Below, one piece after another: positions 1-23,570 of a DNA stretch of 36,858 nucleotides (positions are counted from its first letter, which is position 1; every line of letters begins with the position of its first letter). The DNA is taken from the NCBI GenBank assembly GCA_902537615.1, contig CACBBU010000012.1:1-36858 (forward strand), read 5' to 3'. The notes beneath the pieces are model-generated. The model did no database searches, had not been told where the DNA came from, and saw only the letters and a program-made list of their open reading frames with translations. Source of the stretch: an uncultured Alphaproteobacteria bacterium. GTDB lineage: Bacteria; Pseudomonadota; Alphaproteobacteria; Methylaequorales; Methylaequoraceae. The position numbers were made by a program, and so were the translations under genes.

Positions 1-3000
1 TAATTCGAGGCTGCTCCTGTTCCATCCGCTAACGCTAGGTTACCATTACTGCTCATAGCTATTCCGTTCGCTACGTTGGCACTCGCTGCCGTACCGGAAC
101 CTGTCATTGTTAAGGTCTCGCCTCCTTGCAAGGCATCAAAGCTACTCAACGTTGAGCCTGCTGCTGCTGTTGTTCCATCATATTGTCTCGCTAATGTTGC
201 GTTCAACGGACGCTGATTTACAGTTAACTGATGCGTTCCTCCACTTAATGTATAGTTACCCGCTAAGCCTCCATTGGATCCGTTACCTAAAGCAAGCGTA
301 CCCACTGACACTGTTTTATTCGATCCTACATCCTTACTGGCAATCGTTCCGGTTCCACTTAAAGTAAGTGTTTCTGATCCCACTAAGTTAGCATGGGTTG
401 ATAAATCTGAAGCTACTGCATTCGTTGTGGCATCATATAAACGGGTGCCGCTTACACCCACAGGACGTCTGTTAACTGTAAAGTTATGGGTTCCACCCGT
501 TAACGTATAGTTGGAAGCTGCACCACCACTACCGTCAGCTATACTAATCCCCGACAGATTACTTATTGTATAACTACCCGCGTTAGCTGAACTAATCGTG
601 GCTGTTCCGGAATGATTCAAGGCTTCTCCAGAGACCAGATTACTTAGTGTTATCGCTCCCGCTAACGCATTCGTGTTCGCATCATAGGTTTTAGATCCTG
701 ATGAGTTCAGAATTCTTTGGGTGATTGTATAATCTTGTGTTCCTCCCGTTAAAGTGTAATTTGATGCTAATCCACCATTAGATCCGTTACCAAGAGCAAG
801 TGTTCCTGCAGATGTATCTGTTAGATTGTAAGTTCCTACATTCCTCGATGAAGTTGAACCTAGACCACTTGACATTGTTAATGTCTCAGTATTAACCGTT
901 CCGGTTATTCCTGATATATCTGAGGCTGCTATATTAGTTGTGCCATTATATTGTCGTGTTCCTACAATATTAACTGCTTTTGGGTTTATTGCAAAACTAT
1001 GTGTTCCTCCTGTAAGCGTATAATTTGCAGCCAAAGCACCACTAGATGCATTAGCTCCTGCTTGATCACTGATTGTTACACCTGATAAATTTGATATTGA
1101 ATATGATCCAACGTTTTTATTAGATGTTGCCGCTGAGTTACTTAGTTGAAGCGTTTCTCCAGACACCTGGTTTGTTAATGTTATATCGCTTGCAGCAGCT
1201 GTTGTCGTTGCATTATATATCCTAGAGCTATTACTGTTTAATACTTTTTTATTTATAGTTAGTGCTGCCGAAGTCAGATTATAGTTACTTTCCAATCCAC
1301 CGCTTGATGCTGAAGCTCCAGATTGATCTCCAAGTGCGATGGTACCCAATGTAACGGATTGAGAACTTCCGGAAACATTTTTACTCGCAACAGAACCTTG
1401 TCCAGTTAATGTCAGAGTTTCTGAGCCAACTAATCCACTGTAAGACTCTGTTGTATTCGAGTCTGTAGCATTAGATGAAGCATTGGTTGTGCCGTCATAC
1501 TGGCGTGTTAGACCAATTGTAATAGGGGCTTTTGTAATATTTACTTGATGGGTACCACCAGTCAATGTGTAGTTAGCGGCTAAGCCTCCATTTGAACCGT
1601 TTGCCAAGGTGATTCCAGATGCATTAGACGTTATCGTAACATTATTTGCTACATTTTTCTTAGTTGCGGTAGAGCCTGCCGTCGTTGTTTGAGAACCAGT
1701 GACAACTGTTTCAGAACCTATTAAGCCCGTAACTGTTGGAAGTTCTGATGCAAGGACTACATCAGTGCCATCATAAACTTTACTTCCACTTAAGCCCAGT
1801 GGCTTTTGAGTAACAGTGTAGACATGATTACCGGATGATAGATTTATTTTGTAATTCGATGCTAATCCACCGTTGGATCCATTTCCAAGGGCAAGAGTTC
1901 CATTACTACTCAGTATTGAAGCACTTGAAACATCTTTACTATTTGCCGTTCCAGTTCCGCTTATCGATAATGTTTCACGACTGGAATGACTATCAGCAAC
2001 ATTTATAGGAAGGAAATAGGTTACTCCACCAGAAACAAGTCCTGTATTAAAATTGCTCGTATTTGATCCACTTCCGGGAGCTGTATAAGTTCCTTGTGCC
2101 GCCATTCTCGTAATAGTGGTAGATGCTGCATCTGTATTTCCATCATATGTTTTGGTTCCCGTGAGAAGTATTTCTCTTTGTGTAATGTCAATTTTGAGAT
2201 TTCCACCTGTAAATGTGTAGTTTGATGCAGCGTGTGTTTGATCAGCCAGTGCCCAAGTATTAAGTGTTCCAACATTAATATTAGTTCCTACATCTTCACT
2301 ATCAGATCGAGCAAATCCAGAGAAGAGAACGTTTTCACCAGAGATTAGATTTTGTATTTGAGCCTCTGTTGTGGCCGCGTGCACCTCATTATCACCATCG
2401 TAAACTTTAGTACCAGTAATGATTAAAGGAAGTGGGTTTATTGTTAAACTATGTGTCCCACCTGTAAGAGTGTAATTTGAACCAATTCCTCCGTTGGTTC
2501 CATTTGCAAGAGATAGGCCAGAGGTGTCGGTTATTGTCCTACTACCAGCACCGCCTGCAAGCAATGTTCCGGTACCGTTTATATTTAGTGTTTCACTTCC
2601 AACTGTTCCAGATGAAACCGATAAATCACTGGCAGCAGCATTAACTGTTCCATCGTATAGTCTAGTTCCGCTTACATTTACTGGTTTGGGTTCAATACTC
2701 ACAGTCAGATAACCATTTATAGCAATGGTATTTATATTATAACTGCCCGCATCAGCACCTCCTAATGCTAAAGACCCTATATTGGCATTGGTTATTGCGA
2801 TACTATTTCCAACATTAGCAGAACTTGCTGTTCCAGAACCTGAAATAGTAACGTTTGCCCCTGGATTACTGGGGTCAACAAGGCTTAAAATAGAGCCGGA
2901 TACTGCAGATGAGGCGTCATACTGTCTTGTACCAGTTATGTATGCACTTGTTGCCGTTATGTCCACTGTATGTGTACCACCGGTTAATGTATAATTACTT

Positions 3001-4090
3001 GCAGTTCCCGTTCCATTTACTAGATTAATTCCAGGCGATGTTGCGTTAACGGTTATACCAACTCCAGGTGTAGATTGAGCTGCTGTTCCAGATCCACTGG
3101 CTGTAAGTGTTTCAGATGTTCCTGTTTCAACGGTCAAAATTGATCCGGCAACACTCGTAGAACTGTCGTCAGCACGCGACCCAGAGAGATTAACGATTTT
3201 CTGTGTTATTTCAGCCTCAACATTACCATTAATCGAATAATTACTAGCAGCTCCGAATCCATCAGCTAAACTCATTCCTGTAACTACATAACCGGTACCT
3301 ACATTTGTTGACCCACCGGAGATAGTTCCTGTTCCAGATAAGGCTAATGTTTCGTTAAATACACCCGTTCTTGTTGCGGCATTATTGGGTGGGTTTCCCA
3401 TCGTGGGGTATTCAAAAAAGACTGTGTCCCCGCTATCATAAGTAGCTGTAGTGTCGTATTGTTTTGTAAGCTTAACTTTCAACGGTCTTGGCTTAATTCT
3501 GAATGTCGTTGAATTAACATTATAATTATTAGGGTCACCAGCGACACCGCCACTTCCATTTCCATTGGTCAATGATATATTACTCATTGTAAACGACGTG
3601 TACGTATTTCCAGGATCTGCAACCATTGTGAAGAAACTGTCTGTACCTGCTGTAAACTGGAGATCTTCCCCCGAAACTAACCCAATAATCTCTAATCCAC
3701 CAAATCCAGCGGAATCAGCTGCGGCTACGATATTTGTCGTTGCGTCATAGTATTTTTCACCTCTAACCTGAATATTTTTTCTTGAAATTCTTCCTGTAAG
3801 GGTTGGTGCAGAGGCGCTAGTTGTCAAACCAAAAACGTTTGAAAAGTTTGTGTGTGTTTTTGAAGCTATAGAATATGCTGCACTTCCTGTAACCGTTTGA
3901 TTTCCTTGATTCACATTGTTGTAGGTAAATGTTGGGCTACTCAGAGTCACAGATAAGCCTGAGGGCAACCCTCCTGAAACACCTGTCACACTTGGGGATG
4001 AAGTATTAAAAGAAGCTGAAGCCGTTGAATTTGTTCCATCATAAGTCTTTGTAAGATGGTAAGACGTAAGATTAAATACTTGATAGTTTT
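1..4090 (-). repeat. Tandem array of about 15 YDG-type modules within the exoprotein gene
   Basis: On the minus strand a Y-D-G, Y-D-A or Y-N-G motif recurs near 4030, 3740, 3440, 3160 (degenerate, ADD), 2910, 2650, 2390, 2140, 1760, 1490, 1210, 945, 680, 431 and 176. Spacing is mostly 250-300 bases (about 85-95 residues), with one longer unit between 2140 and 1760. Most units also have an SETLTLSG-like strand and a GNGSNGGLASNYTLTGGT-like segment. The array continues beyond position 1. The units share protein sequence but are clearly diverged at the DNA level, so they are not a recent expansion. Confidence 0.88.
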
Positions 4091-6713
4091 TATATAAGTT
4101 TCCTGGGTTATAAGCACTGAGTAATCCACTTCCTGTTCCTTGAATAGCATCACCTGAAGAGTAATCATATTGAATAAAGTTTCCAGAAAAACCACCGAAA
4201 TTTCCTCCGTTAATAGAAGTATCTGTGTTCGTAGCCCTCCAGATTCCATTAGGAGTGCTTACAGAACCACTTCCGCTGAGGTATTTAGATGTTATATTAA
4301 CTGCTGTTCCGGTTCCGTTAGCCGTTAATGATGATCCACCAACGTTTAAGTACTTATTATTACTCGTGATATTAATTGCAGAAGAGGCAGTAAAATTACC
4401 TAGATCGCTGGGTTGAGAGTTATTAGTTGCAGAATCAGTAATTGTAATATCATTAGCATTTATAGTTGCAGATGATAAATTTACATCGTAAGAACCTGTC
4501 GTATTGGAGTTTCCTAGAGTTATATTTAAATCTCCTGTACCAAGATTTACCGTACTAGATATGTCGATATCTGAATATCTATTATTCCCTCTTCCACTTA
4601 TAGATTCGTTATTGGCTTCAAGCGTTAAATTACCATTGGCAGTCGTTATGTTCGCAGATATATTGATATCCACACCTGCATTAAGTGTAAGGTCACCTCC
4701 AGAGCTTCCTGTTGCTATAATATCACTTTGAACGTAAATATTTCGCTGTGCCTTCAATATTACATTAGTTCCTGACGTTATAGCAGACTCAATAATAGAA
4801 CTATTTACCCTATAGGAAGTTGTACCACCATCAGCATATTGATCAACATTAGTGAGAACACTAGTAAGAGTAGTTCCACCAAAGGAGCTATCTCTTACAT
4901 AAATGTTACGTGGATCAAGAAGCAAAGTTCCACTGTTAAGGGAAACACCTTCTATATTTGCCCTTTTTAGGTAATTTTTAGAGGAAATTTCAACAAATCC
5001 TCCACCCTTATCATAAGACCGTGGAGGAGGGGAATCCACCAGAGATGAAATTAAAGGTTCTTTTGACCATATTGACTTATTGGGGGGATCATTATTTAAA
5101 TCAATATGACTAGTCTTATTTGTTTTTAATGCAGTTTGCTTAATATCTGCACCTTTTGCATTGATAGTTCCATTGAAATCTGTCATTTCATCGGACCATA
5201 TAACGGCTGTTCCTCCTTTTCCTAGGTCACTTGAAACATCAATATTTGTATCCGCTTTGACAATCGTTTGTTTGGAATTGTCAATTGGGGGTTGATCGCC
5301 AAAGCGAGAAACAAATCCTTTTTTAATTTTATTATCCAAATTGGTTAAATTTCCTCCCAAATAATCTCCACCTATCCTTACTTTTCCTCCCATTTGAGGG
5401 CCAGTTGCACTAATTTCTGCTTTTTCTATTTCTGTTTTTTCTGCTGTAACATCAATGTTTCCGCCTTTTCCTACGTTGGAATTAGCAAATATATCACCTG
5501 ATACCTTGTTTTTAACCTTAGCTAATAACTGTGCAGTTCCACCTTTTAGTTGACCTGAAACGTCAATTACAGTTTTTGCTGATGTTCTGATAGAATTTTC
5601 AGACATAACTATAATTGAACCACCCTTATCTTTATTTCCTTTAGCAAATAAAGAACCGTCTAGCTTCAGATTCTCAGTGGTAAGTACTTTTATTTTTCCA
5701 CCAGAACCACCACCTGCGTAAATATTACCTGTATGTGTTACGCGGTGACCTTGAACAATAACTGTTCCTGATGGTGACAAGGATCTTTTTGGTGCTGAAA
5801 CATCTATATTTCCTGCAACCTTAATAGAGTTAGCTGATGGACTTCCTATAACAATTTTTCCAGGTTTACTATTAACACCTTGAGCTACAATACTTCCAGT
5901 AGAACCAATATTCACAGCTCCTCTACTTAACCCCATAGCAGTCGCTGCAGATAATTTGATCATCCCTCCATTAGCTCTCAATGTTCCACTGTTGTTTATA
6001 AGACTTTTTAATGTATTTCCTTCAATATCAGTTATTGTTGATAGTTTATGACTTGGTACAGTAACCTTCATCAATCCGTCACCAACAAAATCTAATGTTA
6101 TTTTCTCACCCGCACCTAAGGCTATCTTACCTAATCTTGCACTGACAATTCCAGAATTTGAAACATACCCTCCTAGTAAAGCTGCATGCCCCCCGCCACC
6201 AATCGTTATTTTTCCAGAATTGATAACTCCTTTAGATTTGCCATTTCCTTTAAAGCTAAAGTTATCTTTTAAAAAGTCTTGGTCATTTATATCTAGTGTT
6301 GAAGCCGTGAATGATTTCGTATTTACTACACCATTTGGAGTAATTACCACTCCATTGGGGTTTATTAGCATTAATTTACCATTAGATTTTAATTGACCAG
6401 CAATTGATGAAGGAGTAGATCCCACAACTCTGTTTAAAGAAAAAGAGTTTGCAGATGGTTGATTAAAATCAACCCTTCCACCTGAATGTATTGAAAAACT
6501 GTCCCAATTTATAATAGTTTTGTTTGTTTTTGTGTTAACCTGGAGATGATCTGTTCCAGTACCAGTTATGCTTACCTTTCCGGATTGTACCACAGGGTTA
6601 GTTGGCATTTCACCTGAAATGGCCCAATTAGGTCTTGCACTTGCTATAGATGCTACCACCAGAGTGCTAACGATTATTCTTTTTAATTTTCCATCAACTT
6701 TATATATGACCAT
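1..6713 (-). CDS. Giant two-partner-secretion exoprotein (filamentous haemagglutinin-like adhesin with YDG/MBG repeats), 3' end outside window
   Basis: Reading from the ATG at 6713, the minus strand stays open to the window edge, about 2237 codons with no stop, so the gene is incomplete at its 3' end. A short hydrophobic segment at residues 12-26 (RIIVSTLVVASIASA) resembles a signal peptide. Residues about 30-140 match the haemagglutination-activity/TPS secretion domain, with the motifs INWDSFSI, VDFNQPSA, LNRVVG, INPNGVVI and then ASTLD. Gly/Ser/Asn-rich beta-helix-like sequence follows to about residue 870. From there at least 15 modules carry a Y-D-[GA] motif and a NYTLTGGT-type segment, as in YDG and MBG domains. 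By family knowledge the protein is exported through its TpsB partner, whose gene ends 41 bp upstream, and is displayed or released as an adhesin. The ligand cannot be read from sequence. The TPS-domain assignment is strong; the adhesive role is inferred. Confidence 0.9.
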   Translation of the reverse strand, partial: MVIYKVDGKLKRIIVSTLVVASIASARPNWAISGEMPTNPVVQSGKVSITGTGTDHLQVNTKTNKTIINWDSFSIHSGGRVDFNQPSANSFSLNRVVGSTPSSIAGQLKSNGKLMLINPNGVVITPNGVVNTKSFTASTLDINDQDFLKDNFSFKGNGKSKGVINSGKITIGGGGHAALLGGYVSNSGIVSARLGKIALGAGEKITLDFVGDGLMKVTVPSHKLSTITDIEGNTLKSLINNSGTLRANGGMIKLSAATAMGLSRGAVNIGSTGSIVAQGVNSKPGKIVIGSPSANSIKVAGNIDVSAPKRSLSPSGTVIVQGHRVTHTGNIYAGGGSGGKIKVLTTENLKLDGSLFAKGNKDKGGSIIVMSENSIRTSAKTVIDVSGQLKGGTAQLLAKVKNKVSGDIFANSNVGKGGNIDVTAEKTEIEKAEISATGPQMGGKVRIGGDYLGGNLTNLDNKIKKGFVSRFGDQPPIDNSKQTIVKADTNIDVSSDLGKGGTAVIWSDEMTDFNGTINAKGADIKQTALKTNKTSHIDLNNDPPNKSIWSKEPLISSLVDSPPPRSYDKGGGFVEISSKNYLKRANIEGVSLNSGTLLLDPRNIYVRDSSFGGTTLTSVLTNVDQYADGGTTSYRVNSSIIESAITSGTNVILKAQRNIYVQSDIIATGSSGGDLTLNAGVDINISANITTANGNLTLEANNESISGRGNNRYSDIDISSTVNLGTGDLNITLGNSNTTGSYDVNLSSATINANDITITDSATNNSQPSDLGNFTASSAINITSNNKYLNVGGSSLTANGTGTAVNITSKYLSGSGSVSTPNGIWRATNTDTSINGGNFGGFSGNFIQYDYSSGDAIQGTGSGLLSAYNPGNLYKNYQVFNLTSYHLTKTYDGTNSTASASFNTSSPSVTGVSGGLPSGLSVTLSSPTFTYNNVNQGNQTVTGSAAYSIASKTHTNFSNVFGLTTSASAPTLTGRISRKNIQVRGEKYYDATTNIVAAADSAGFGGLEIIGLVSGEDLQFTAGTDSFFTMVADPGNTYTSFTMSNISLTNGNGSGGVAGDPNNYNVNSTTFRIKPRPLKVKLTKQYDTTATYDSGDTVFFEYPTMGNPPNNAATRTGVFNETLALSGTGTISGGSTNVGTGYVVTGMSLADGFGAASNYSINGNVEAEITQKIVNLSGSRADDSSTSVAGSILTVETGTSETLTASGSGTAAQSTPGVGITVNATSPGINLVNGTGTASNYTLTGGTHTVDITATSAYITGTRQYDASSAVSGSILSLVDPSNPGANVTISGSGTASSANVGNSIAITNANIGSLALGGADAGSYNINTIAINGYLTVSIEPKPVNVSGTRLYDGTVNAAASDLSVSSGTVGSETLNINGTGTLLAGGAGSRTITDTSGLSLANGTNGGIGSNYTLTGGTHSLTINPLPLIITGTKVYDGDNEVHAATTEAQIQNLISGENVLFSGFARSDSEDVGTNINVGTLNTWALADQTHAASNYTFTGGNLKIDITQREILLTGTKTYDGNTDAASTTITRMAAQGTYTAPGSGSNTSNFNTGLVSGGVTYFLPINVADSHSSRETLSISGTGTANSKDVSSASILSSNGTLALGNGSNGGLASNYKINLSSGNHVYTVTQKPLGLSGSKVYDGTDVVLASELPTVTGLIGSETVVTGSQTTTAGSTATKKNVANNVTITSNASGITLANGSNGGLAANYTLTGGTHQVNITKAPITIGLTRQYDGTTNASSNATDSNTTESYSGLVGSETLTLTGQGSVASKNVSGSSQSVTLGTIALGDQSGASASSGGLESNYNLTSAALTINKKVLNSNSSRIYNATTTAAASDITLTNQVSGETLQLSNSAATSNKNVGSYSISNLSGVTISDQAGANASSGALAANYTLTGGTHSFAINPKAVNIVGTRQYNGTTNIAASDISGITGTVNTETLTMSSGLGSTSSRNVGTYNLTDTSAGTLALGNGSNGGLASNYTLTGGTQDYTITQRILNSSGSKTYDANTNALAGAITLSNLVSGEALNHSGTATISSANAGSYTISNLSGISIADGSGGAASNYTLTGGTHNFTVNRRPVGVSGTRLYDATTNAVASDLSTHANLVGSETLTLSGTGTIASKDVGSNKTVSVGTLALGNGSNGGLAGNYTLSGGTHQLTVNQRPLNATLARQYDGTTAAAGSTLSSFDALQGGETLTMTGSGTAASANVANGIAMSSNGNLALADGTGAASN

Positions 6714-6754: not shown

Positions 6755-8557
6755 CTAAAACCTCATTGACATTGAAACTAGCAGATGCTTTTGATTCAAC
6801 CGTACATCAGACACATCTTCAACATTACTTGTTGCCCAATTTTTTGAAAGTTCTATTTTTGCGGTAATTCTTTTATTAAAGAAATACTCATCACCACCGT
6901 TTATTTCTAATCCTAACCCCATTGATTTGGCTGCAGTTGCTGCCCTTTCTGTTGCTGTTGGCTGATTCACATAAGCAACACCACCAGCTCCATAAATATA
7001 CGGAGATATTGTTAAATCTTTTGAGATCCTATTGTTGAAATTAAGTTGACCCCTTAAAAACCATACTTCCTCACCACTTATAGCACCCGAGCTAAATGCA
7101 CTTAATTTTTCTTCACCAGTTATCCCTTTTTGTTCAGAATTTACCAAATCATTTAAAGTATATTGACCTCCTCCATTTACTTTAAATAGCAAATTATCGT
7201 GGGGACTTACTGAATATCTCGCATGTAGGTTAAAATGGGTAAATGTTGAAGTTGCTGTTGATTTTGATAGTGGTGTTCCTTGACCTACTTCACTGTTTGA
7301 CCTTGAGGCGATATCCAGTCCTTTTGAAATTTCAGCATCTACACCCAGACAACCAGTTGAACATAAATTATAACTCAATCCCAAACGTGCTGCTGTTATT
7401 CTATCATGGCTGAGGTCCTCATCAGTGCCTCCAGCATTGGTTTGTTGTAATTCATCAGTCCAGCTTACTGTAGCCCTTGTGAATAGTGCTGAATTTCTGG
7501 AATATATTATTGGATATGATGCTGTAACTTGGGCTGATTTCATGTTTGCCTCCAAACCCAATGATTGTACTTCACCTCCTGGACGAGTCATACTTTCCAA
7601 ATATGACAGACCAGTTGTTAATCCCTTATTTCCAATCGGAACCGATATTGAAAACCCTCCTGCACGAATTGGAACATCGTGTCCAGTACCAGACATACCT
7701 TTGATGGTTGGTCTTGCCAATCCAAATAAAGAAATTGTTTCTCCGAGCCCAAAAGCCGAACTAATATTAGTATTTGCTTGGCCTTGTTGTCTCCCCAGTT
7801 GTTCACTCTGCGAATTGTCAAATGAAATTCCACCAGATAGTAATTTATGTTCTGCCTCAATAACTAACCTTGTAGAACCTTCTTTAATGCCTGGGATAAG
7901 TGATGAAGCTAGGGTCAACCCAGCGCTATTGCTAGCTAGCAGCAGTTGTCTTTCAAGGAATTTGAGAGTTAAGTTTTTTTTGTTTATAAGCGGTTTAAGA
8001 TAGGCGTATGTTCTTAAAGTTTGGGCTTTTGGTACTTTAGAAAGATCAATCTTTTCTATGAATCCATCAATAACTTTAAAAAAGACTGAAGCTTGTTCAG
8101 GCTCTAATTCTTGTACAGGAAGAATCACCCTTACCAATGGGTAGCCTTTTTGATTAAAATCTTTTTCAATTTCATAGGCAATGCTGTATAAATCATTAAT
8201 GCTTTGAGGTACGCCAATAAGCATTTTATAATATTTATCCTTATCAATAATATTTTGAAGTTCTGGTGGAGCTAATATAATTAAGCTTTTCAAATTTATC
8301 TTTATGCCAGTGTCTTGTTGCTGCGTAACTTCAATCTGAGGTATTTCAGGGATTATCTTTTCTTGCTTTTTAAATTGATAGTAGTCTACACCTGGCGGTT
8401 TTTGGAACATTTTAGGCAACGCCTGGCTAGGTGTCTGAGGAGCTGCATATGATATTTTTGCATAAGCTAACCCAAACAATAAGAGCAAAAAAAACTGTGA
8501 AACCTTAACAAAAAATGTAGGTTTTAAACGTTCCAAATGTGAAAAACGAATGCCCAT
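6755..8557 (-). CDS. TpsB-family outer-membrane transporter (ShlB/FhaC type) for the adjacent exoprotein
   Basis: About 600 residues, the normal size for the family. The N-terminus has a hydrophobic signal peptide core (FFLLLLFGLAYAKISYA). Next comes a POTRA-like region at roughly residues 85-170, including GYPLVRVILPVQELE and FFKVIDGFIEKIDL. The rest is a 16-strand-type beta-barrel ending in the outer-membrane signature VSMSMRF with a terminal Phe. In this family the POTRA domains capture the TPS domain of the partner and the barrel exports it. The partner gene starts 41 bp downstream, and tpsB-tpsA is the usual order. I chose the ATG at 8557; an in-frame TTG at 8566 would add three residues, and no ribosome site decides between them. 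The gene follows the DnaA-box gap at 8567-8692. Confidence 0.9.
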   Translation of the reverse strand: MGIRFSHLERLKPTFFVKVSQFFLLLLFGLAYAKISYAAPQTPSQALPKMFQKPPGVDYYQFKKQEKIIPEIPQIEVTQQQDTGIKINLKSLIILAPPELQNIIDKDKYYKMLIGVPQSINDLYSIAYEIEKDFNQKGYPLVRVILPVQELEPEQASVFFKVIDGFIEKIDLSKVPKAQTLRTYAYLKPLINKKNLTLKFLERQLLLASNSAGLTLASSLIPGIKEGSTRLVIEAEHKLLSGGISFDNSQSEQLGRQQGQANTNISSAFGLGETISLFGLARPTIKGMSGTGHDVPIRAGGFSISVPIGNKGLTTGLSYLESMTRPGGEVQSLGLEANMKSAQVTASYPIIYSRNSALFTRATVSWTDELQQTNAGGTDEDLSHDRITAARLGLSYNLCSTGCLGVDAEISKGLDIASRSNSEVGQGTPLSKSTATSTFTHFNLHARYSVSPHDNLLFKVNGGGQYTLNDLVNSEQKGITGEEKLSAFSSGAISGEEVWFLRGQLNFNNRISKDLTISPYIYGAGGVAYVNQPTATERAATAAKSMGLGLEINGGDEYFFNKRITAKIELSKNWATSNVEDVSDVRLNQKHLLVSMSMRF

Positions 8558-8586
8558 CAACACCAATCTATTTTAATTTCCAAACA

Positions 8587-8692: not shown

Positions 8693-9358
8693 TTAACCCC
8701 AAATAGGCCTGTTAATTTTTTTAAGGATATCTTCATGTAACCTTTTGTCTTCATCAGACAATTTCACTAAAATAGGCTTAGAGCTTGATGGTGTTTTAAA
8801 GTTTTCAGTAATTAATAATTGATTTTGAGAAAGATTAAGTCTTTCTTGTTTCCCCCCCAATAGTTCAATATAAACATCTTGCAGAAGATAACAGTCTGTA
8901 AGTGCTCCGTGTTTTTCCCGGTTTTCTAGGCTTATATTAAAACGTCTACACAAAGCATTAAGATTGTTCTTACTTCCAGGAAAAGCTTTTTTTGACATCT
9001 CTAATGTACAGATTGCTCTTTTAGGATTAATCATTTCTTTGCCAATTCGCTCAAGAGAATGGTTTATCATTGCCAAATCAAATGAAGCATTGTGGATTAT
9101 TAACTGCGAATCCTCAATGAAATCAAGAAACTCTTGTGCTGAATTTTCAAATGTTGGAAATTTCTCCAGAAATTTGTTATTTAGACCATGGATTTGTTCA
9201 GCTTCATTTGAAATTATTATATTCCCAGGGTTATAATACCGATGATACTTTTCTCCTGTTGGTGATTCATTAACCATCTCAACACAAGCTAATTCAATAA
9301 TTCTATCTTTTTCGGGGTTTAAACCAGATGTTTCTGTGTCTAATACCAGTTTTCTCAT
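8693..9358 (-). CDS. dnaQ: DNA polymerase III epsilon subunit, 3'-5' proofreading exonuclease
   Basis: A 221-residue DEDDh exonuclease. ExoI has D7 and E9 (LDTETSGL), ExoII has D94 (HNASFDLAMI), and ExoIII has H150 and D155 (HGALTDCYLLQD), so all four metal-binding acids and the catalytic His are present. The C-terminal tail, after about residue 180, is where the family binds the alpha subunit. The start ATG lies 4 bp after the parB stop, so the gene appears to be co-transcribed as the last gene of the mnmE-parB operon. In most alphaproteobacteria I know, dnaQ sits with coaE near secB; its place after parB is unusual. It could instead be another DnaQ-like exonuclease, but the length and motifs fit epsilon. 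Confidence 0.92.
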   Translation of the reverse strand: MRKLVLDTETSGLNPEKDRIIELACVEMVNESPTGEKYHRYYNPGNIIISNEAEQIHGLNNKFLEKFPTFENSAQEFLDFIEDSQLIIHNASFDLAMINHSLERIGKEMINPKRAICTLEMSKKAFPGSKNNLNALCRRFNISLENREKHGALTDCYLLQDVYIELLGGKQERLNLSQNQLLITENFKTPSSSKPILVKLSDEDKRLHEDILKKINRPIWG

Positions 9359-9362
9359 TAAA

Positions 9363-10403
9363 TTACTTAGGCTTCCATTTTAACTTATCAATAACGGGCT
9401 GAATCTGGTCAAGGGTTTTATAGCGTATTGACATGCTTCCACTGTTATTATTTTTATGGTTGAATTCAACTTTTAACCCAAGTAAAACAGTCAATTCTCT
9501 CTCTAGATACTCAATATTTACGTTATTTGAGTTATCCTGTGTCCCATAATTTTGACTATTATTTGTTACTGCCTTGGTCCTCTTAATATGATTAACAAGT
9601 TTTTCTGTTTTTCTTACACTCAGCTCTTCGTCAATAATTCTATCAGCTACTTCTTTTGCCTTGTCCTCAGGAAGTGATACTAAAACTCTTGCATGTCCAA
9701 AACTTAGGTCACCGCCTGAAATATGCCTTTTTACGCTGTTAGGCAGTGATAATAATCGCAAAACGTTGGCTATATGGCTTCTGCTTTTGCCTAGTTGCGA
9801 AGACAATTTCTCCTGTGTATATTCAAACTTTAACATCAGCGAACGAAAGCCCTCAGCCTCTTCAATTATATTAAGATCAGATCTTTGAAGATTTTCTATG
9901 AGAGCAACGCCTAGTGCTGTGGAATCATCAAAGTCTCTTACTATAACTGGTACTTCATGGAGTTTTACGATTTGCGCAGCTCTCCAACGTCTCTCTCCCG
10001 CAATTATTTCATATGATGAGCCTTTTTCGTTTAGAGGGCGCACTAATATGGGCTGAAGAATACCATTAGAGCGAATAGATTCAGCTAACTCATCCAACTC
10101 AGTCTGGTCAAAATGCTTCCTAGGCTGAAATTTACCTGAGATTAAGTTCTGGATGGGAAGTTTGACCTGATCATTTTCGTTATTCTCTAAATTTCCTATT
10201 TTTTTATCAAGATTATTCTTAATAACATTAAGTGAAGGAAAAGACTTCTCATTCTTCTTAATGCTAGTGGCAGTATTAATTTTAGAATCTATTTTTGTTT
10301 TTACAACGGAGGCTAAGCCCTCATCACTAGATAGAAGGGATGATAGGCCCATTCCGAGTTTTTTTGGTGATTTTTTTTTGTCTTTTTTGTGAGTTTTGTT
10401 CAT
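9363..10403 (-). CDS. parB: Chromosome partitioning protein ParB
   Basis: A 346-residue parS-binding CTPase that spreads along DNA around parS and activates ParA. The N-terminus carries the usual basic patch and LGMGLSSLLS segment (residues 16-25). A long, low-complexity Asn/Lys linker follows. The ParB/Srx nucleotide domain has GERRWRA at 136-142 and ENLQRSDLNIIEEA at 170-183, and a helix-turn-helix lies at about 195-218 (TQEKLSSQLGKSRSHIANVL). The C-terminal dimerisation region is at about 295-346. The start is 9 bp after the parA stop. Two parS sites lie upstream in the same operon, at 11799 and 13720. Confidence 0.97.
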   Translation of the reverse strand: MNKTHKKDKKKSPKKLGMGLSSLLSSDEGLASVVKTKIDSKINTATSIKKNEKSFPSLNVIKNNLDKKIGNLENNENDQVKLPIQNLISGKFQPRKHFDQTELDELAESIRSNGILQPILVRPLNEKGSSYEIIAGERRWRAAQIVKLHEVPVIVRDFDDSTALGVALIENLQRSDLNIIEEAEGFRSLMLKFEYTQEKLSSQLGKSRSHIANVLRLLSLPNSVKRHISGGDLSFGHARVLVSLPEDKAKEVADRIIDEELSVRKTEKLVNHIKRTKAVTNNSQNYGTQDNSNNVNIEYLERELTVLLGLKVEFNHKNNNSGSMSIRYKTLDQIQPVIDKLKWKPK

Positions 10404-10412
10404 AAATTATCC

Positions 10413-11195
10413 TTAATTTTTCAAGCCTCCAAAATTTCCTCTTTTTAAAACCTCTGCAGCTAAGTTGACATATGCCTCGGAACCAATACAACTATGATCA
10501 TACAACAATATTGGTTTGCCATGAGAAGGCGCTTCAGAGATTTTAATATTTCTTGGAATAATTGTGTCATAAACAGCAGAACCCATGACTTCTCTGACAT
10601 CTTCCTCCACTTGAAAACTTAATTTATTTCTTGAATCATACATGGTCAACAATATACCATCTAAATCCAGCGAGCTATTCAATCCAGACTTGATATCCTT
10701 AATTACTCTGAGAATTTGGCTAAGTCCCTCTAATGCGTAGAATTCGCATTGGAGGGGAATTAGAACTTTATTTGATGCTGTTAAAGCATTGGTGGTTAAA
10801 AAACCAAGACCCGGAGGACAATCAATAATAATTGCCGAAAAATCTACAGGCAACTTCTCAATTGCTTGCTTTAAAATAAACTCATTTCCATCCCCATTGT
10901 TAACTTCATATTCTGCTTTTGCCAGAGAAACACTGGAAGGAACAACCCCCAAACCATTTACCTCTGTTGGCTTTATTGCATCAGCAAGTTCAACTCTTCT
11001 CGTCAAAACTTCATATGCACCAGGTTGACGTTTATTTGACTGTATAGCAAACCCAGTACTAGCATTCCCCTGTGGATCTAAATCAATCACTACACACGAT
11101 TTTCCTGAAATTGACAAAGCTGTGGCTAAATTTACAGCTGTAGTGGTTTTTCCAACCCCACCCTTTTGATTTACTATTGAAAATACTGTACGCAT
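10413..11195 (-). CDS. parA: Chromosome partitioning ATPase ParA
   Basis: A 260-residue deviant-Walker ATPase that binds nucleoid DNA and moves ParB-parS complexes. The deviant Walker A is KGGVGKTT at residues 11-18, with the signature lysine K11; Walker A' is DLDPQGN at 38-44; Walker B is IIIDCPPGLG at 122-131. The length matches chromosomal ParA (Soj-type) without the N-terminal HTH of plasmid ParA. It lies between rsmG (3 bp gap) and parB (9 bp gap), the standard chromosomal order. Confidence 0.97.
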   Translation of the reverse strand: MRTVFSIVNQKGGVGKTTTAVNLATALSISGKSCVVIDLDPQGNASTGFAIQSNKRQPGAYEVLTRRVELADAIKPTEVNGLGVVPSSVSLAKAEYEVNNGDGNEFILKQAIEKLPVDFSAIIIDCPPGLGFLTTNALTASNKVLIPLQCEFYALEGLSQILRVIKDIKSGLNSSLDLDGILLTMYDSRNKLSFQVEEDVREVMGSAVYDTIIPRNIKISEAPSHGKPILLYDHSCIGSEAYVNLAAEVLKRGNFGGLKN

Positions 11196-11198
11196 ATA

Positions 11199-11858
11199 CT
11201 AATTATTTTTTTTCAGGTTCGTTATTTCTAGAGTAACCCCGCCCGATTTATCTAGTTGATTATTATTTTTAACAACTTTATATGAAAAGTTCCAGAGTTT
11301 TTTCGCATTTTCAATTTCTTTTTGATAAGTTTTGCCTTTAGGAAGAAGTAAAATCGTGTTTTTGTTAGACAAATGTATCAGAAGGCCCAACAAAACATGA
11401 AGTGGAGCAACTGCCCTAGACATAATAATATCATATTTTTCTTCTATTCTTTCCACTCTTTCATTAATAATTCCAACAGACAACATTAATTTTTGTTTTA
11501 CAAGGTGCAGAAACTCACATTTTTTTCTGTTTGACTCTATTAAAGTCATTTTAACCTGATGTTTTTGGTCTGAAAGTATTAAAAAACAGGCTAGGCCAGG
11601 AAAGCCTGCTCCTGAGCCGACATCACACACTTTAATAATATCAGTAGTTTTTTTTTTAAAAGAAATAATTCTGTTAATTAGTTTTGCTGAGTCACCAAAA
11701 TGCCTGGTCCATACACTTGAAATTGTTCCGGAACCAATTAGGTTTGTTTTTTTTTGAAATTTTAAAAGAAGATCATGATATTCAGTAAACCGAGTCATTG
11801 TTTCACGTGGAACATTATAAAGTTCTTGAAAGACTCTAGTCTGGTTAGAAATGTTCAC
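11199..11858 (-). CDS. rsmG: 16S rRNA (guanine-527-N7) methyltransferase
   Basis: A 219-residue Rossmann-fold methyltransferase that modifies G527 of 16S rRNA. The SAM-binding loop is VCDVGSGAGFPGLA at about residues 77-90, and the family motif SRAVAPL occurs later. The N-terminal residues NVPRET (15-20) are encoded by a parS site, a dual use of sequence known in other bacteria. The start ATG follows the mnmG stop by 1 bp, so translation is probably coupled. Confidence 0.95.
   Translation of the reverse strand: MNISNQTRVFQELYNVPRETMTRFTEYHDLLLKFQKKTNLIGSGTISSVWTRHFGDSAKLINRIISFKKKTTDIIKVCDVGSGAGFPGLACFLILSDQKHQVKMTLIESNRKKCEFLHLVKQKLMLSVGIINERVERIEEKYDIIMSRAVAPLHVLLGLLIHLSNKNTILLLPKGKTYQKEIENAKKLWNFSYKVVKNNNQLDKSGGVTLEITNLKKNN
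11799..11814. other. parS site inside the 5' end of rsmG
   Basis: TGTTTCACGTGGAACA reads TGTTCCACGTGAAACA on the other strand. It differs at one base from the palindrome TGTTTCACGTGAAACA and equals a commonly found functional variant. It encodes NVPRET of RsmG and lies about 600 bp upstream of parA in the same operon. It is the likely ParB nucleation site. Confidence 0.9.
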
Positions 11859-11859
11859 G

Positions 11860-13713
11860 TTATTTTTTAATATATTTTAAAAGAATGGCAGCAGCTGCAG
11901 GAGTCATTCCAGGCAATTCCCTTGCCTCTCCGATGCTTTTGGGTTTATGTTTATTCAATATTTCTTTCACTTCATTTGATAAACCTGCACATTCATCTAG
12001 TTTTTTATTAAAATCTATCACCAATCCTTTTTCTCTATTTAATTCTTCAATTTCTGACAGATATCTTTGAGAATATCTTTCATAAAAAGAGTTGACCTTT
12101 ATCTGCTTAGCTATGCGTTTATCTAGTGACAATCTTTTTAGTTTAGGCCATATACGAAATACTAACTCCCAACTGCTGTTTTTGTAACCCAGAATGTCAT
12201 ACGCTGACCTTTTCTTGCCATCTTGATTGATTTTTAAGCCTGCTTTTTGGTATATTTGTGGCGACGCAACTAATTCCTTTAAAATTTTAGTTGAATTGGA
12301 GAGTATTTCTTTTTTTTTCTTCCATTGTTTTTTCCTTGACTCCTCAACCGTGCCCAGGGATATTGCTTTATCAGTAAGTCTTTCATCAGCATTGTCAGCT
12401 CTAAGAAGAAGCCTGTATTCTGCTCTAGAGGTAAACATTCTGTATGGCTCAATCAAGCCGCCTTTAATAATATCAGAGGTGAGAACCCCTAAATATCCCT
12501 CAGAACGCTCTACCAAAAATTCCTCTTCATTAGATAAAGATTTGGCTGCATTAATTCCAGCTAGGAGTCCTTGTGCTGCAGCTTCCTCATAACCAGTTGT
12601 CCCATTTATTTGACCGGCAAGGTACAACCCTTTAATTTTTTTTGTCTCATATGTTCTTCTAATCTCATTGCTTTCTATACAATCATATTCAACAGCATAT
12701 CCAAACTTTTCAATAACTGCTTTTTCTAAGCCTTTTATTGTTTTTAGAAAATCAGCTTGGACTTTTTTTGGTAAAGATGTTGAAATACCGTTAGGATAAA
12801 CTATTCCGCCGCATTTGGTTTCTGGTTCCAAAAATATTTGATGCCTGCTTTTATCCGCAAATTTCTTAATTTTATCTTCAATTGAAGGACAATATCTAGG
12901 ACCCCTTGATTTTATACTTCCGTTATAGATAGGGGACTTATAAATACTATCATCTATAATTTTATGAGTTTTTCTATTAGTATGCGTTATAAAACATGGT
13001 TTTTGATCAACGTTTAATTTTCTTGTCATAAAGGAGAAAGGCTCTGGATCTGAATCACCATGTTGAATAATACATTTTGAAAAATCAATTGAATCACCTA
13101 TAATTCTTGCGGGAGTCCCAGTTTTAAGTCTAAAAGTTGAAAAATTATTTTTTTTAAAGAATTTTGAAAGTTTTTCTGATGAGCAACCACCAATTCTTCC
13201 CGCGCTCCATGCTTCCTGACCCATAAATATTTTTCCTGACAGAAAAGTGCCAGTTGTTAATATAATAGAACCACATGTAATTTTCCCCCTAGACTCTGTT
13301 TCAATTCCTTGGACAATTTTACTTTTTTTAACAGAGTTTACTAATATATTAGTTACCTCATCTTCAATTATATCTATCCCTTCATTTAAAATTATACTAG
13401 AGACATTCTTCTTATACAGATTTCTATCGATTTGTGCCCGAGGCCCCTGAACGGCTTCACCTCTAGTTCTGTTCAACATTCTAAATTGTATTCCAGATAA
13501 ATCTGAAGCAAGGCCCATTATACCTCCCATTGCATCAATTTCTCTAATTAAATGTCCTTTTCCTAACCCTCCCATCGCTGGGTTACAAGACATAACACCA
13601 ATATCACCTGCAGAAAAGGTTACAATGGCGACCTTAGTGTTTAGTCTTTTGGCCATAATAGCGGCCTCAACACCTGCGTGACCGCCTCCAATTACTAAAA
13701 TATCATAATTCAT
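11860..13713 (-). CDS. mnmG: tRNA uridine-5-carboxymethylaminomethyl modification enzyme MnmG (GidA)
   Basis: A 617-residue FAD protein that works with MnmE to make cmnm5U or nm5U at the wobble position 34 of tRNA. The dinucleotide-binding motif GGGHAG is at residues 9-14. The conserved blocks [41 protein letters not shown] and [18 protein letters not shown] all read through. The C-terminal helical domain, which binds MnmE and tRNA, ends in [18 protein letters not shown]. The length is normal. The gene lies 24 bp after mnmE, and that gap contains a parS site. Confidence 0.97.
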
Positions 13714-13719
13714 AAAAAA

Positions 13720-13735
13720 AGTTCCACGTGAAACA
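13720..13735. other. Second parS site, in the mnmE-mnmG gap
   Basis: AGTTCCACGTGAAACA matches the parS variant TGTTCCACGTGAAACA at 15 of 16 positions; only the outermost base differs. It fills most of the 24 bp gap between the mnmE stop and the mnmG start and lies 1.9 kb from the site in rsmG. Confidence 0.85.
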
Positions 13736-13737
13736 TT

Positions 13738-15126
13738 TTATTTTCCTATACAAAATTTATTAAAAACAACCTCTAACCTATCTTCAACATCACTTCTGCC
13801 ATATAAAGTATCCAAAGAAGATAAAGTTTTAGATAAAAAATCGCTAGCTATTTCAATACTTTTAATATTTTTAATACACATTTCTAAATCATAAATCATA
13901 GATGAAATAACATTAATCTGAGCCTTTTCAAAGAAGTAATAGTTATCATTTAAATTTCTGTCAATTATTAACAAGTTTTTATTTATGAACTTCATTAAAT
14001 TAATCAACATCTTGTAGTCACTTCTATTTACTTTACAAGATATAGAAAAAGACTTAATTTTTTTTAAATTACTGATTTGATTCATCCACCTTATTTTTCC
14101 ACTATCAAAAGAATTCAAATCATTTTTATTGTATATAACAACTAAATTTTTATCTCCAAGTTTGTTAACGGTATTCTCAATAAAATCGCAATTTTTTTTT
14201 GAAAAAGAATCTGGTGATAAAACAAGAATAAAATTTTTAGAGGTATCTAAAATTTCAAGAGTTTTCTTCACCCCTTTTTTTTCAATTGAGTTATTTGCTT
14301 TTCTTAACCCTGCAGTATCTGTAATAGCAGCTTTTTGACCAAAGATTTCAAGTTGAGCAGTATTTTTATCTCTTGTTGTTCCTTTAATAGATGACGTAAT
14401 TGCTTTGTTTTCCTGACATAAAAGATTGTAGAACGATGATTTACCACTGTTTGGCGGACCAAAGATAATAATATCCTGTCCATTATAAGCTTGCTGACAA
14501 GTATCAGAGAATTCTATCGCCTTTTTAGCATTCTGGACGAGTTTTTTTAAATTTTTTTCAACAATCATCAAATTAAAATCTTCTCCTTCCTCTGGAAAGT
14601 CAATAGCAGAGTCTAATATTGCAAGGTTTTCAGCAATTAATTCTCTCCATTCTTTGCAAATGTTTCTTGTTTGTCCAAAAGTCTGGTTTGACGCTACCAC
14701 CCTTTGTTGCTCAGTTTCCGATGAAATTAGATTAGCTAGACCTTCATAGTGGATAAGATCATTTTTACCGTTTGTATAAGCCCTTTTTGAAAATTCTCCA
14801 GGCAGCGCGAATCTACAACTTTCAAATTTTTCAAGAACTTCAAATATTTTATTAATAATTGCTGTGCTACCATGAGTGTGAATTTCCAACATGTCTTCCC
14901 CGGTATATGACAAGGGGGTCTTGAAAAAAATAATTAGGCCACGATCAATAATCAAGTTTTTATCATCAAAAAAGGTTGTTAAGTACACTTTTCTTTCAGA
15001 AAAATTATTTTTTTTCGTCAATTTTTTTGCAACATCTAGGCAGTTTGGGCCTGAAAGTCGTATCACTGCAACCGCAGAACGTCCATAAGGTGTTGACAAA
15101 GCAAAAATAGTTTCTTTTTTTTCCAT
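13738..15126 (-). CDS. mnmE: tRNA modification GTPase MnmE (TrmE)
   Basis: A 462-residue, three-part protein that partners MnmG in wobble-uridine modification. The N-terminal domain (1-120), which binds a tetrahydrofolate, contains STPYGRSAVAVIRLSG and later LPGEFSKRA. The embedded G domain has G1 GPPNSGKS (223-230), G2 GTTRD (249-253), G3 DTAG (270-273) and G4 NKND (333-336). The C-terminus is the catalytic CIGK, with Cys459. It is the first gene of the mnmE-mnmG-rsmG-parA-parB-dnaQ operon. Its start is 75 bp from the divergent amt, so the promoters probably overlap. Confidence 0.97.
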   Translation of the reverse strand: MEKKETIFALSTPYGRSAVAVIRLSGPNCLDVAKKLTKKNNFSERKVYLTTFFDDKNLIIDRGLIIFFKTPLSYTGEDMLEIHTHGSTAIINKIFEVLEKFESCRFALPGEFSKRAYTNGKNDLIHYEGLANLISSETEQQRVVASNQTFGQTRNICKEWRELIAENLAILDSAIDFPEEGEDFNLMIVEKNLKKLVQNAKKAIEFSDTCQQAYNGQDIIIFGPPNSGKSSFYNLLCQENKAITSSIKGTTRDKNTAQLEIFGQKAAITDTAGLRKANNSIEKKGVKKTLEILDTSKNFILVLSPDSFSKKNCDFIENTVNKLGDKNLVVIYNKNDLNSFDSGKIRWMNQISNLKKIKSFSISCKVNRSDYKMLINLMKFINKNLLIIDRNLNDNYYFFEKAQINVISSMIYDLEMCIKNIKSIEIASDFLSKTLSSLDTLYGRSDVEDRLEVVFNKFCIGK

Positions 15127-15179: not shown

Positions 15180-15201
15180 TGTTGCAAAAAAGGATTTGTT
15201 T

Positions 15202-16473
15202 TTGATAAAACTTCTCGTAATCTTTTTAGCTACATTAGTATCTACCGAAGTTCATGGAAAGGTAAATTCCGGTGATACAGCTTGGATCCTTACATCATCT
15301 GCATTAGTGTTATTTATGACATTACCAGGGTTAGCCTTATTTTACGCAGGGTTAGTTCAATCTAAAAATGTCTTATCGGTTTTATGTCAGCACTTCGGAA
15401 TAGCTTGCTTGATGTCAATTATATGGGTTATTCTAGGTTATTCTATTGCATTTTCACCAGGTGACTCAAGTTTATTTGGTAACTTATCAAAAATGTTTAT
15501 AGAATTATCTTCTAACGCCTTAATTGGAGGTATACCAGAGGTACTGTTTGCAATGTTTCAGATGACATTTTGTATCATAACTCCTGCGCTGGTTATAGGA
15601 TCCTACGTTGAAAGGATAAAGTTTTCTGTAGTTCTCATTTTTTCAGCTCTATGGTTAATTTGTGTGTATTGTCCAGTTGCTTTTTGGGTATGGGGCGGTG
15701 GATTCTTAGCACAAATGGGAGTAAAAGATTTTGCTGGCGGTATTGTTGTTCATACAACTGCAGGTTTAGCTGCATTAGTAGTTGCTCTTATACTAGGTAA
15801 AAGAAGAAATTTTAGCTCAAACACGATGGTACCTCCACACAGTCCGATCCTTACAATGATTGGAGCGTCAATGCTGTGGGTTGGATGGTTTGGATTTAAT
15901 GGTGGCTCTGCTTTAGCAGCGGATCAGACTGCTTCAATGGCAATTTTAGTCACACACATTGCCGCTTCTATTGGAGCTTTTTCATGGATATTAATAGAAT
16001 GGTTTCGATTTGGTAAACCTTCACTGGTAGGTATGGCTACTGGTATGGTTGCAGGTCTTGCAACTATTACACCAGCTTCTGGTTTTGTAGGAATACAAGG
16101 TGCGATTATACTTGGCATAAGTGGCGGAGTATTGTGTTATGTTGCTGTAGATATCATAAGAATAAAGCTTAAGGTTGATGATAGTCTTGATGTATTTGCT
16201 GTCCACGGTGTTGGGGGTATAATTGGAACTATTCTATGCGGCTTTCTCATATCCTCTAACTGGGGCGGTGTAGGCTTTGATGAAGGATTATCAGCAGTTG
16301 ACCACGTCAAAATACAATCATATGCAGTGCTTATTACAGTAATCTGGACGGTATTAGTTACGTACATAATATTAAAAGTTATTTCTCTTTTCACATCTCT
16401 TAGGGTTGATGAACAAAATGAAATTGAAGGGTTGGACACTTCTACTCACGGAGAGAGTGGTTATCATAGCTAA
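15202..16473 (+). CDS. amt: Ammonium transporter, Amt family
   Basis: About 423 residues with an N-terminal signal-like segment and eleven predicted membrane helices. The Amt hallmarks are GDTAWILTSSALVLFMTLPG, FYAGLVQSKN, QMTFCIITPALVIG and SYVERIKF. The twin pore histidines lie in GGIVVHTTAGLAALV and VFAVHGVGGIIGTI. The short C-terminal tail ends in the GLDTSTHGESGY motif typical of the family. It conducts ammonium across the inner membrane. I chose the TTG at 15202 because AAGGA at 15189-15193 stands 8 bp before it; the TTG at 15196 would leave only 2 bp. No glnK (PII) gene is adjacent, unlike the common glnK-amtB pair. The 3' end converges on gshB with a 14 bp gap. Confidence 0.95.
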   Translation: MIKLLVIFLATLVSTEVHGKVNSGDTAWILTSSALVLFMTLPGLALFYAGLVQSKNVLSVLCQHFGIACLMSIIWVILGYSIAFSPGDSSLFGNLSKMFIELSSNALIGGIPEVLFAMFQMTFCIITPALVIGSYVERIKFSVVLIFSALWLICVYCPVAFWVWGGGFLAQMGVKDFAGGIVVHTTAGLAALVVALILGKRRNFSSNTMVPPHSPILTMIGASMLWVGWFGFNGGSALAADQTASMAILVTHIAASIGAFSWILIEWFRFGKPSLVGMATGMVAGLATITPASGFVGIQGAIILGISGGVLCYVAVDIIRIKLKVDDSLDVFAVHGVGGIIGTILCGFLISSNWGGVGFDEGLSAVDHVKIQSYAVLITVIWTVLVTYIILKVISLFTSLRVDEQNEIEGLDTSTHGESGYHS

Positions 16474-16487
16474 ATCTCCCATCGTTA

Positions 16488-22649: not shown

Positions 22650-22724
22650 GCGGGAATAGCTCAGTGGTAGAGCATCACGTTGCCAACGTGAGGGTCGCGA
22701 GTTCGAATCTCGTTTCCCGCTCCA
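22650..22724 (+). tRNA. tRNA-Gly (anticodon GCC)
   Basis: The cloverleaf is complete. The acceptor stem is GCGGGAA / TTCCCGC, the D-arm is GCTCAGTGGTAGAGC, the anticodon stem is CACGTTGCCAACGTG with GCC in the loop, and the T-arm is GCGAGTTCGAATCTCGT. A discriminator T and an encoded CCA end at 22724. It reads GGC and GGU glycine codons. Confidence 0.98.
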
Positions 22725-22774
22725 TTTCTGATTTTTGTAAAAATTATTTTCTGTTGAGCCGTGCAGATTTTATA

Positions 22775-23557
22775 CTATACAATTATTCTGGTCCAAGAGT
22801 TGTCATACAGGTCCTGTGAATCCTTCGGTCCTCTGGGTCCATACCATTTATCTGGAGAAATGATTTTTTCTTTTTTTTTCCCTAAAAAAGCACCCCACCA
22901 AGAGAAAGAACTATTACTCATTATGATGCTATCACATTGAGACAATGCATATAAATCTTCAACCTCATTATCATTTTCTAAATTAACAAGGTCTTTAAGA
23001 TTAACCTCTCGCTGTAATGAATTAAAATCATCTGAAAAAATTAAAAACTCATATTCGTCCTCAAAATATTTGGTTGCCTTTTTAAGGTATAATGAGTAAT
23101 CAATATTATAAAAAACTCCCTCTGTACTTTTTGCACGATAATCACCCAGTCTAAAATGAATTCCTACTTTTTTCTTTTTAATTTTATTAAACTTATTCAA
23201 AACTTTATTAGTTAATGATTTTGGAAATTCAAAGAGGCTTTTAACCTCATCTTCGTATCCTGTGAAATACTTTTTTGATTGAAAATATCCAATTAAACAT
23301 AGATTGTTTGAGTTAGGTATTGGTGTATAACTATAATTTGGTTCTTTATAAAGAGAAAAAACGTTTTCATTTGTCTCTGAAATATTTTTATAAAGGTTAT
23401 CTTTATATCTGACATGGGGGTACCCTTGACCATTGTATATTGAACCAATTTTATAGTTTATTGCATACTCCGTTTGAACCCTCTTTGCATGAGCAAACCC
23501 AGCAGATATTTGAAATAACTGATTTCCCAGGCCTCCAATTAAGTCATTAATAATCAT
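22775..23557 (-). CDS. GT11-family glycosyltransferase (alpha-1,2-fucosyltransferase-like)
   Basis: A 260-residue, GDP-fucose-type transferase. Three family blocks are visible: GGLGNQLFQISAGFAHA at 8-24, the donor-binding block HFRLGDY at 134-140, and SNSSFSWWGAFL at 214-225. The usual second block is HxRRxDY; here the second Arg is Leu. No membrane segment is seen. It probably adds a deoxyhexose to a surface polysaccharide. The 13 bp gap to the upstream ColD-like gene suggests one transcript. If ColD makes a colitose precursor, the donor here could be GDP-colitose or a related 3,6-dideoxyhexose instead of GDP-fucose; this is inference. Confidence 0.88.
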   Translation of the reverse strand: MIINDLIGGLGNQLFQISAGFAHAKRVQTEYAINYKIGSIYNGQGYPHVRYKDNLYKNISETNENVFSLYKEPNYSYTPIPNSNNLCLIGYFQSKKYFTGYEDEVKSLFEFPKSLTNKVLNKFNKIKKKKVGIHFRLGDYRAKSTEGVFYNIDYSLYLKKATKYFEDEYEFLIFSDDFNSLQREVNLKDLVNLENDNEVEDLYALSQCDSIIMSNSSFSWWGAFLGKKKEKIISPDKWYGPRGPKDSQDLYDNSWTRIIV

Positions 23558-23570
23558 AGTCTCAATATGT

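Follow-up and report, generated by a model that had tools for sequence, protein, structure and literature searches.

The window, by which we mean the whole stretch of DNA that was analyzed (36,858 nucleotides), corresponds to the entire contig C12 of an assembly of 1,232,828 bases in 46 contigs, 78.7% complete, from a genome labelled here G000. At its left end lies the 5' part of a tpsA gene (1..6713, minus strand), which starts with an ATG at 6713, stays open for 2,237 codons and runs off the contig edge, as the original prediction had described it; relatives have the frame as well, free of stops. A putative signal sequence, delimited by eye (6618..6713, minus strand, residues 1 to about 32), is followed by a TPS secretion domain (5802..6587, minus strand, residues 43–304) that matches PF05860 with an E-value of 3.6e-27 and carries an NPNG motif at residue 118; the N-terminal region is also matched by TIGR01901 (E 3.2e-21). 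The PF05860 match was obtained when the N-terminal 638 residues were scanned alone, while the Pfam scan of the whole protein returned no TPS domain, probably as a result of search filters acting on a repetitive query. Relatives of this domain among solved structures in the PDB are EtpA (E 1e-44), HMW1 (E 9e-31) and HxuA. The assignment as a TPS-domain exoprotein had been made to depend on a match of residues 30–140 to this domain, and the N-terminal part does match PF05860.

The intermediate region (3774..5801, minus strand, residues 305–980), for which the stretch tested gave no confident Pfam match, presumably continues the β-helix, by analogy with the TPS family. It leads into an array of YDG units, the window portion of which (3..3773, minus strand) matches PF18657 with an E-value of 1.2e-62. 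Pfam at its default level recognizes 10 significant stretches of PF18657 in this part, and a profile built from the protein's own units counts 15 (a1–a15), in agreement with the predicted minimum of 15 YDG-type modules. The array had been described as a mixed YDG/MBG one, of which the YDG component stands and the MBG component falls, as neither PF18676 nor any other MBG family is matched at E-values up to 0.01 in either half of the gene. Pfam scans of both halves recognized no ligand-binding domain outside the TPS head. The last three units in the window, a13 (type S, 465–710), a14 (type V, 210–464) and a15 (type P, 3–209, truncated by the contig edge), form the beginning of a central conserved block (3..710), all on the minus strand.

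The outer-membrane transporter gene tpsB (6755..8566, minus strand) encodes 603 amino acids from a TTG at 8566, with an ATG at 8557, and its stop at 6755 is separated from the tpsA start codon by 41 nucleotides. The product matches ShlB (PF03865, E 1e-23), so that the dedicated transporter that had been proposed is found directly adjacent to the exoprotein gene; POTRA_2 scores at E 2–3e-4, below the Pfam cut-off, and profile searches match the TpsB4 chain (2mhj) and, weakly, CdiB. No other TpsB was found in the assembly, and the tpsB-tpsA pairing is conserved in relatives. The domains and the adjacent ShlB-family gene therefore bear out the expectation that a small genome encodes a TPS exoprotein for secretion together with its own TpsB. 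At higher coordinates, again on the minus strand, the synteny flank comprises an RNase_T family exonuclease gene (DnaQ-like, 8693..9358) and parB, parA, gidB, mnmG and mnmE (9363..15126); the ammonium transporter gene amtB (15196–16473) follows and is separated from gshB by 14 nucleotides (16474..16487). Elsewhere in the window (22650–24896), a tRNA-Gly gene lies beside genes for a family 11 glycosyltransferase and a DegT-type aminotransferase, perhaps a surface-glycan island.

Contig C1 of this assembly has at its right end a minus-strand frame of 2,918 codons that runs off the contig on one side and closes with a stop on the other (L009:3031-11787). It contains 34 YDG units (PF18657, E 6.9e-237), one of which bears an insertion of ~100 residues (about 907–1011 of this half) that is conserved in G011. 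Taken as the 3' half of tpsA, this frame brings the protein to at least 5,155 residues (226 + 291 kDa, 517 kDa in total) and about 49 YDG units, a length that is a lower bound if sequence is missing between the halves and slightly too large if their ends overlap. The window thus probably reveals less than half of the protein, for which more than 2200 residues had been predicted, and the unfinished end noted at the window edge likely continues to the stop on contig C1. Together the halves occupy at least 15.5 kb, about 1.3% of the 1.23-Mb assembly. The 5,155 residues include just two cysteines, at positions 2910 and 2917 of the 3' half (CX6C), which places them 9 and 2 residues before the C-terminal end, and both are invariant in 20 of 20 aligned family sequences in the frame PCxxxxGxC(N/D); their assignment to this protein presumes that contig C1 carries its 3' half.

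That the two halves belong to one gene is strongly supported. Both run off contig ends in matching directions, and the assembly contains one TPS head and one cysteine tail. The gene is split in the same manner in all nine genomes that were read closely at both ends, as it is in the additional genomes covered; among 32 genomes of the order, none has the whole gene on a single contig or record. In every relative with both halves read, the break falls around one central YDG block: the V, P and S unit types of G000 are located at the broken ends, and units of relatives that are more than 70% identical to them are at or near broken ends as well, with single units at 70–71% in G009 and G020 as weak exceptions. 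After the 3' half, relatives have the same MFS gene followed by purH, and in G010 and G007, which gave no TPS match, MFS-purH shares a contig with parB and ftsK, which are neighbours in the window. In G013 the block is arranged otherwise, with the MFS gene adjoining mnmE, indicating local rearrangements of the region. The contig ends of G005 share exactly 15 nucleotides in frame and would give a joined product of 4,303 amino acids, an overlap that a collapsed repeat could mimic. The MFS gene beside tpsA has in-frame stops in G010 (L200, G010:C1:287894-289090), G017 (L189, G017:C38:1-1149) and G005 (G005:C27:56215-57393); no TPS gene was found in G010 and G017.

A rival reading is that C12 holds the start of one giant gene and C1 the end of another. 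In its favour, no contig connects them, and many relatives do have an additional TpsA that is shorter but has these domains too, encoded by a tpsB2-tpsA2 pair between amtB and gshB. The TpsA2 head is about 48–50% identical, and TpsB2 about 50% identical, to the corresponding parts of the window pair; the TpsA2 tail has the form PCX6CD in G011 and is without cysteines in G009 and G026. Two giant genes nevertheless appear very unlikely. In the window, the site of the second pair is empty, as the 14 nucleotides between amtB and gshB attest, and the assembly has a single TPS head and a single TpsB. Moreover, TpsA2 is complete within one contig in relatives, at 1,320–1,651 codons, and the identical pairing of 5' and 3' parts of the large gene recurs across the order.

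Between G000 and its closest relative, G001, dN/dS is 0.11 for the head, 0.10 for residues 600–1630 and 0.09 for the last 1,231 residues. Values of about 0.1 are not those of a chance open frame, and tpsA is a real gene under purifying selection; together with the collinear, orthologous units they led us to reject a pseudogene or a free expansion of repeats. The synonymous divergence from G001 is 0.47–0.71 in tpsA (both halves) versus 1.2–1.6 in tpsB, parA and parB, for which recombination or codon constraint are possible explanations. A foreign origin of the gene was likewise rejected: its GC content is 0.40 versus 0.32, but the GC3 of the halves (0.24 and 0.23) is similar to that of mnmG and mnmE, so that the higher overall value is attributable to amino acid composition. 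The outer YDG units are about 40–63% identical to one another, and somewhat more toward the central types. For many of them, other genera have orthologues arranged in the same order (G009 and G011; 51–95%), from which it follows that the array is for the most part old rather than the outcome of recent expansion.

In the distant genome G003, full-length V, P and S units are 76–87% identical to those of G000, whereas every other unit is at most 69% identical. Between G000 and G003 or G005, synonymous sites approach saturation (pS 0.72–0.95) at 76–87% protein identity of the full-length units, which argues for constraint at the protein level rather than recent exchange, and the idea that the central block has lately moved from one genus to another accordingly finds no support. 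The statistic for the contrast between V/P/S and other units is a guide only, as the choice of best matches among several similar units somewhat favours V/P/S and units are treated as independent, and the contrast differs between comparisons: in G008, the units preceding the block are also well kept (70–97%). We consider it a speculative and rather doubtful idea that the central V/P/S block is more than stalk and forms the functional part of the fibre, for example a site of binding or self-association, with a copy number that varies by lineage and that short-read assemblies conceal. If it were true, every assembled genome of the order would be without the most constrained part of its largest known surface protein.

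On the basis of these data, the tpsB-tpsA operon is probably a type Vb system that builds an anchored fibre of the HMW1/CdrA kind, likely adhesive. TpsA would enter the periplasm via the putative signal sequence; by analogy with known two-partner systems, its TPS domain would be recognized by TpsB and the chain threaded through this transporter. Outside, the chain may fold into a TPS/β-helix head and then into a stalk with at least some 49 YDG domains. The CX6C motif would form a small disulfide loop unable to pass TpsB, hooking the C-terminus in the transporter and keeping the fibre on the cell, with the TPS/β-helix domain presumably outermost; the cysteine tail itself is modelled with low confidence. 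A model of two YDG units has high confidence (pLDDT 97.6) and long strands that cross from one unit into the next, as would be in keeping with a fairly stiff rod. No solved relatives of the YDG array were retrieved by sequence at E 0.01, nor by Foldseek with the two-unit model at E 0.001, and in a fold comparison the best Z score of this model, 3.8 to Rib adhesin domains, is too weak for use. The likely task of such a fibre, as for HMW1 and CdrA, would be adhesion at a distance, to particles, phytoplankton or other cells. Export, anchoring and fibre orientation are inferred here from known families. Adhesion and its target are the weakest step, which depends on analogy because no ligand-binding domain is recognized and a free-living, planktonic life is what is known of the organism (PMC12542740). 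The suggestion of a long surface fibre or adhesin made in the original prediction is thus upheld as to the fibre, which is the best reading, and is an inference as to adhesion.

Many TpsA proteins are released, and this one could be a free exoprotein comparable to mature FHA. We regard that as unlikely: the cysteine pair near the C-terminus, the sole one in the protein and without exception in the family alignment, makes retention at the surface more likely than release. Some TpsA proteins are anchored at the surface by means of a C-terminal disulfide, which is required for this and remains periplasmic (PMC8151025). The same C-terminus bears on another family of TPS exoproteins, the CdiA proteins of contact-dependent inhibition, which deliver a C-terminal toxin and are of similar size, 180–650 kDa (PMC5422565), and whose transporter CdiB is the weak hit of the TpsB profile. 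Such a role is hardly credible and was rejected, as the VENN motif is absent, the 3' part is a YDG array with no match to a toxin family, the final 40 residues are the conserved cysteine tail, and the next gene, conserved in relatives, encodes an MFS transporter. A fibre displayed for purposes other than adhesion, such as a protective coat or spacer that keeps off phages or grazers, or a surface that collects nutrients or metals, is a possibility of some, if minor, weight. It would be compatible with Pfam scans that recognize a ligand-binding domain nowhere beyond the TPS head and with the biology of the host, an obligate methylotroph of oligotrophic surface water for which attachment is not an obvious life style (PMC12542740). 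Against it, the adhesins EtpA and HMW1 are among the closest TPS relatives of solved structure, and the scarcity of acidic residues (155 D+E in 2,918) gives no hint of a metal-binding polymer; PADLOC had no hits in the TPS part or in TpsB, a result that says little.

A close parallel is CdrA/CdrB of Pseudomonas aeruginosa, which likewise combines a TPS head, a stalk of small repeats, a C-terminal cysteine hook and a single cognate TpsB (PMC7616799). CdrA is held in CdrB by this hook, and its N-terminus is the adhesive tip (PMC7616799). CdrA measures 70 nm (PMC7616799), from which a crude scaling by mass would give some 165 nm for the present fibre. The differences are of size, CdrA having 220 kDa (PMC7616799) versus at least about 517 kDa here, of repeat type, its stalk being described as MBG2-type in place of YDG, and of release, CdrA being freed by LapG. 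No match to LapG (PF06035) was found in the G000 assembly, which is 78.7% complete, while a Caulobacter control was positive, so that a CdrA-like control of release finds no support. HMW1A/HMW1B of Haemophilus influenzae and EtpA/EtpB of enterotoxigenic E. coli share the TPS domain with tpsA, but the chain is much longer here. HMW1 and EtpA are also glycosylated by a dedicated third partner (PMC8151025), whereas no HMW1C-type enzyme was found here; the profile PF18254 has no match in the 32 genomes, and none in the control genomes either.

In size, the protein is of a known kind, since TPS exoproteins range from about 100 to 650 kDa (PMC5422565) and a sample of the class Alphaproteobacteria contains TPS-headed open frames of 3,000–6,701 codons. 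One frame with a TPS head, at G130:C10:191524-192396 in another alphaproteobacterium, has 6,701 codons. The longest alphaproteobacterial frames (4,700–6,700 codons) are found in genomes of 2.4–4.8 Mb, whereas for TPS carriers of up to about 1.5 Mb outside the order of the window genome, the longest frame among those listed has 3,083 codons.

The window TpsB is 88% identical to that of G001 and L142, and an alignment scan of named genomes with it matches MED715, MED657, several AG- single-cell genomes and others. By sequence, the window genome is placed in the genus of MED715. MED715, MED657 and AG-892-F10 belong to the order TMED127, 'Methylaequorales', whose members have genomes of about 1.5 Mb and are abundant, streamlined, obligate methylotrophs of the oligotrophic open-ocean surface (PMC12542740). 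A TpsB of this family with 48% identity is also encoded by L160 (CAJWHN010000077.1), filed under Flavobacteriales, probably through a binning error. The tpsA gene is widespread in TMED127, and because it is broken in the order's assemblies, gene tables show it as fragments, which in AG-892-F10 lie at the ends of contigs 1 and 9; the words 'adhesin', 'secretion' and 'hemagglutinin' do not occur in the main text of PMC12542740. Unusual features are such a size in a genome of some 1.5 Mb, conservation across a planktonic order and a central block left unclosed in every assembly. That a protein of 5,000 residues or more is conserved, at the cost of about 1.3% of the assembly, suggests that contact with something outside the cell matters to these plankton.
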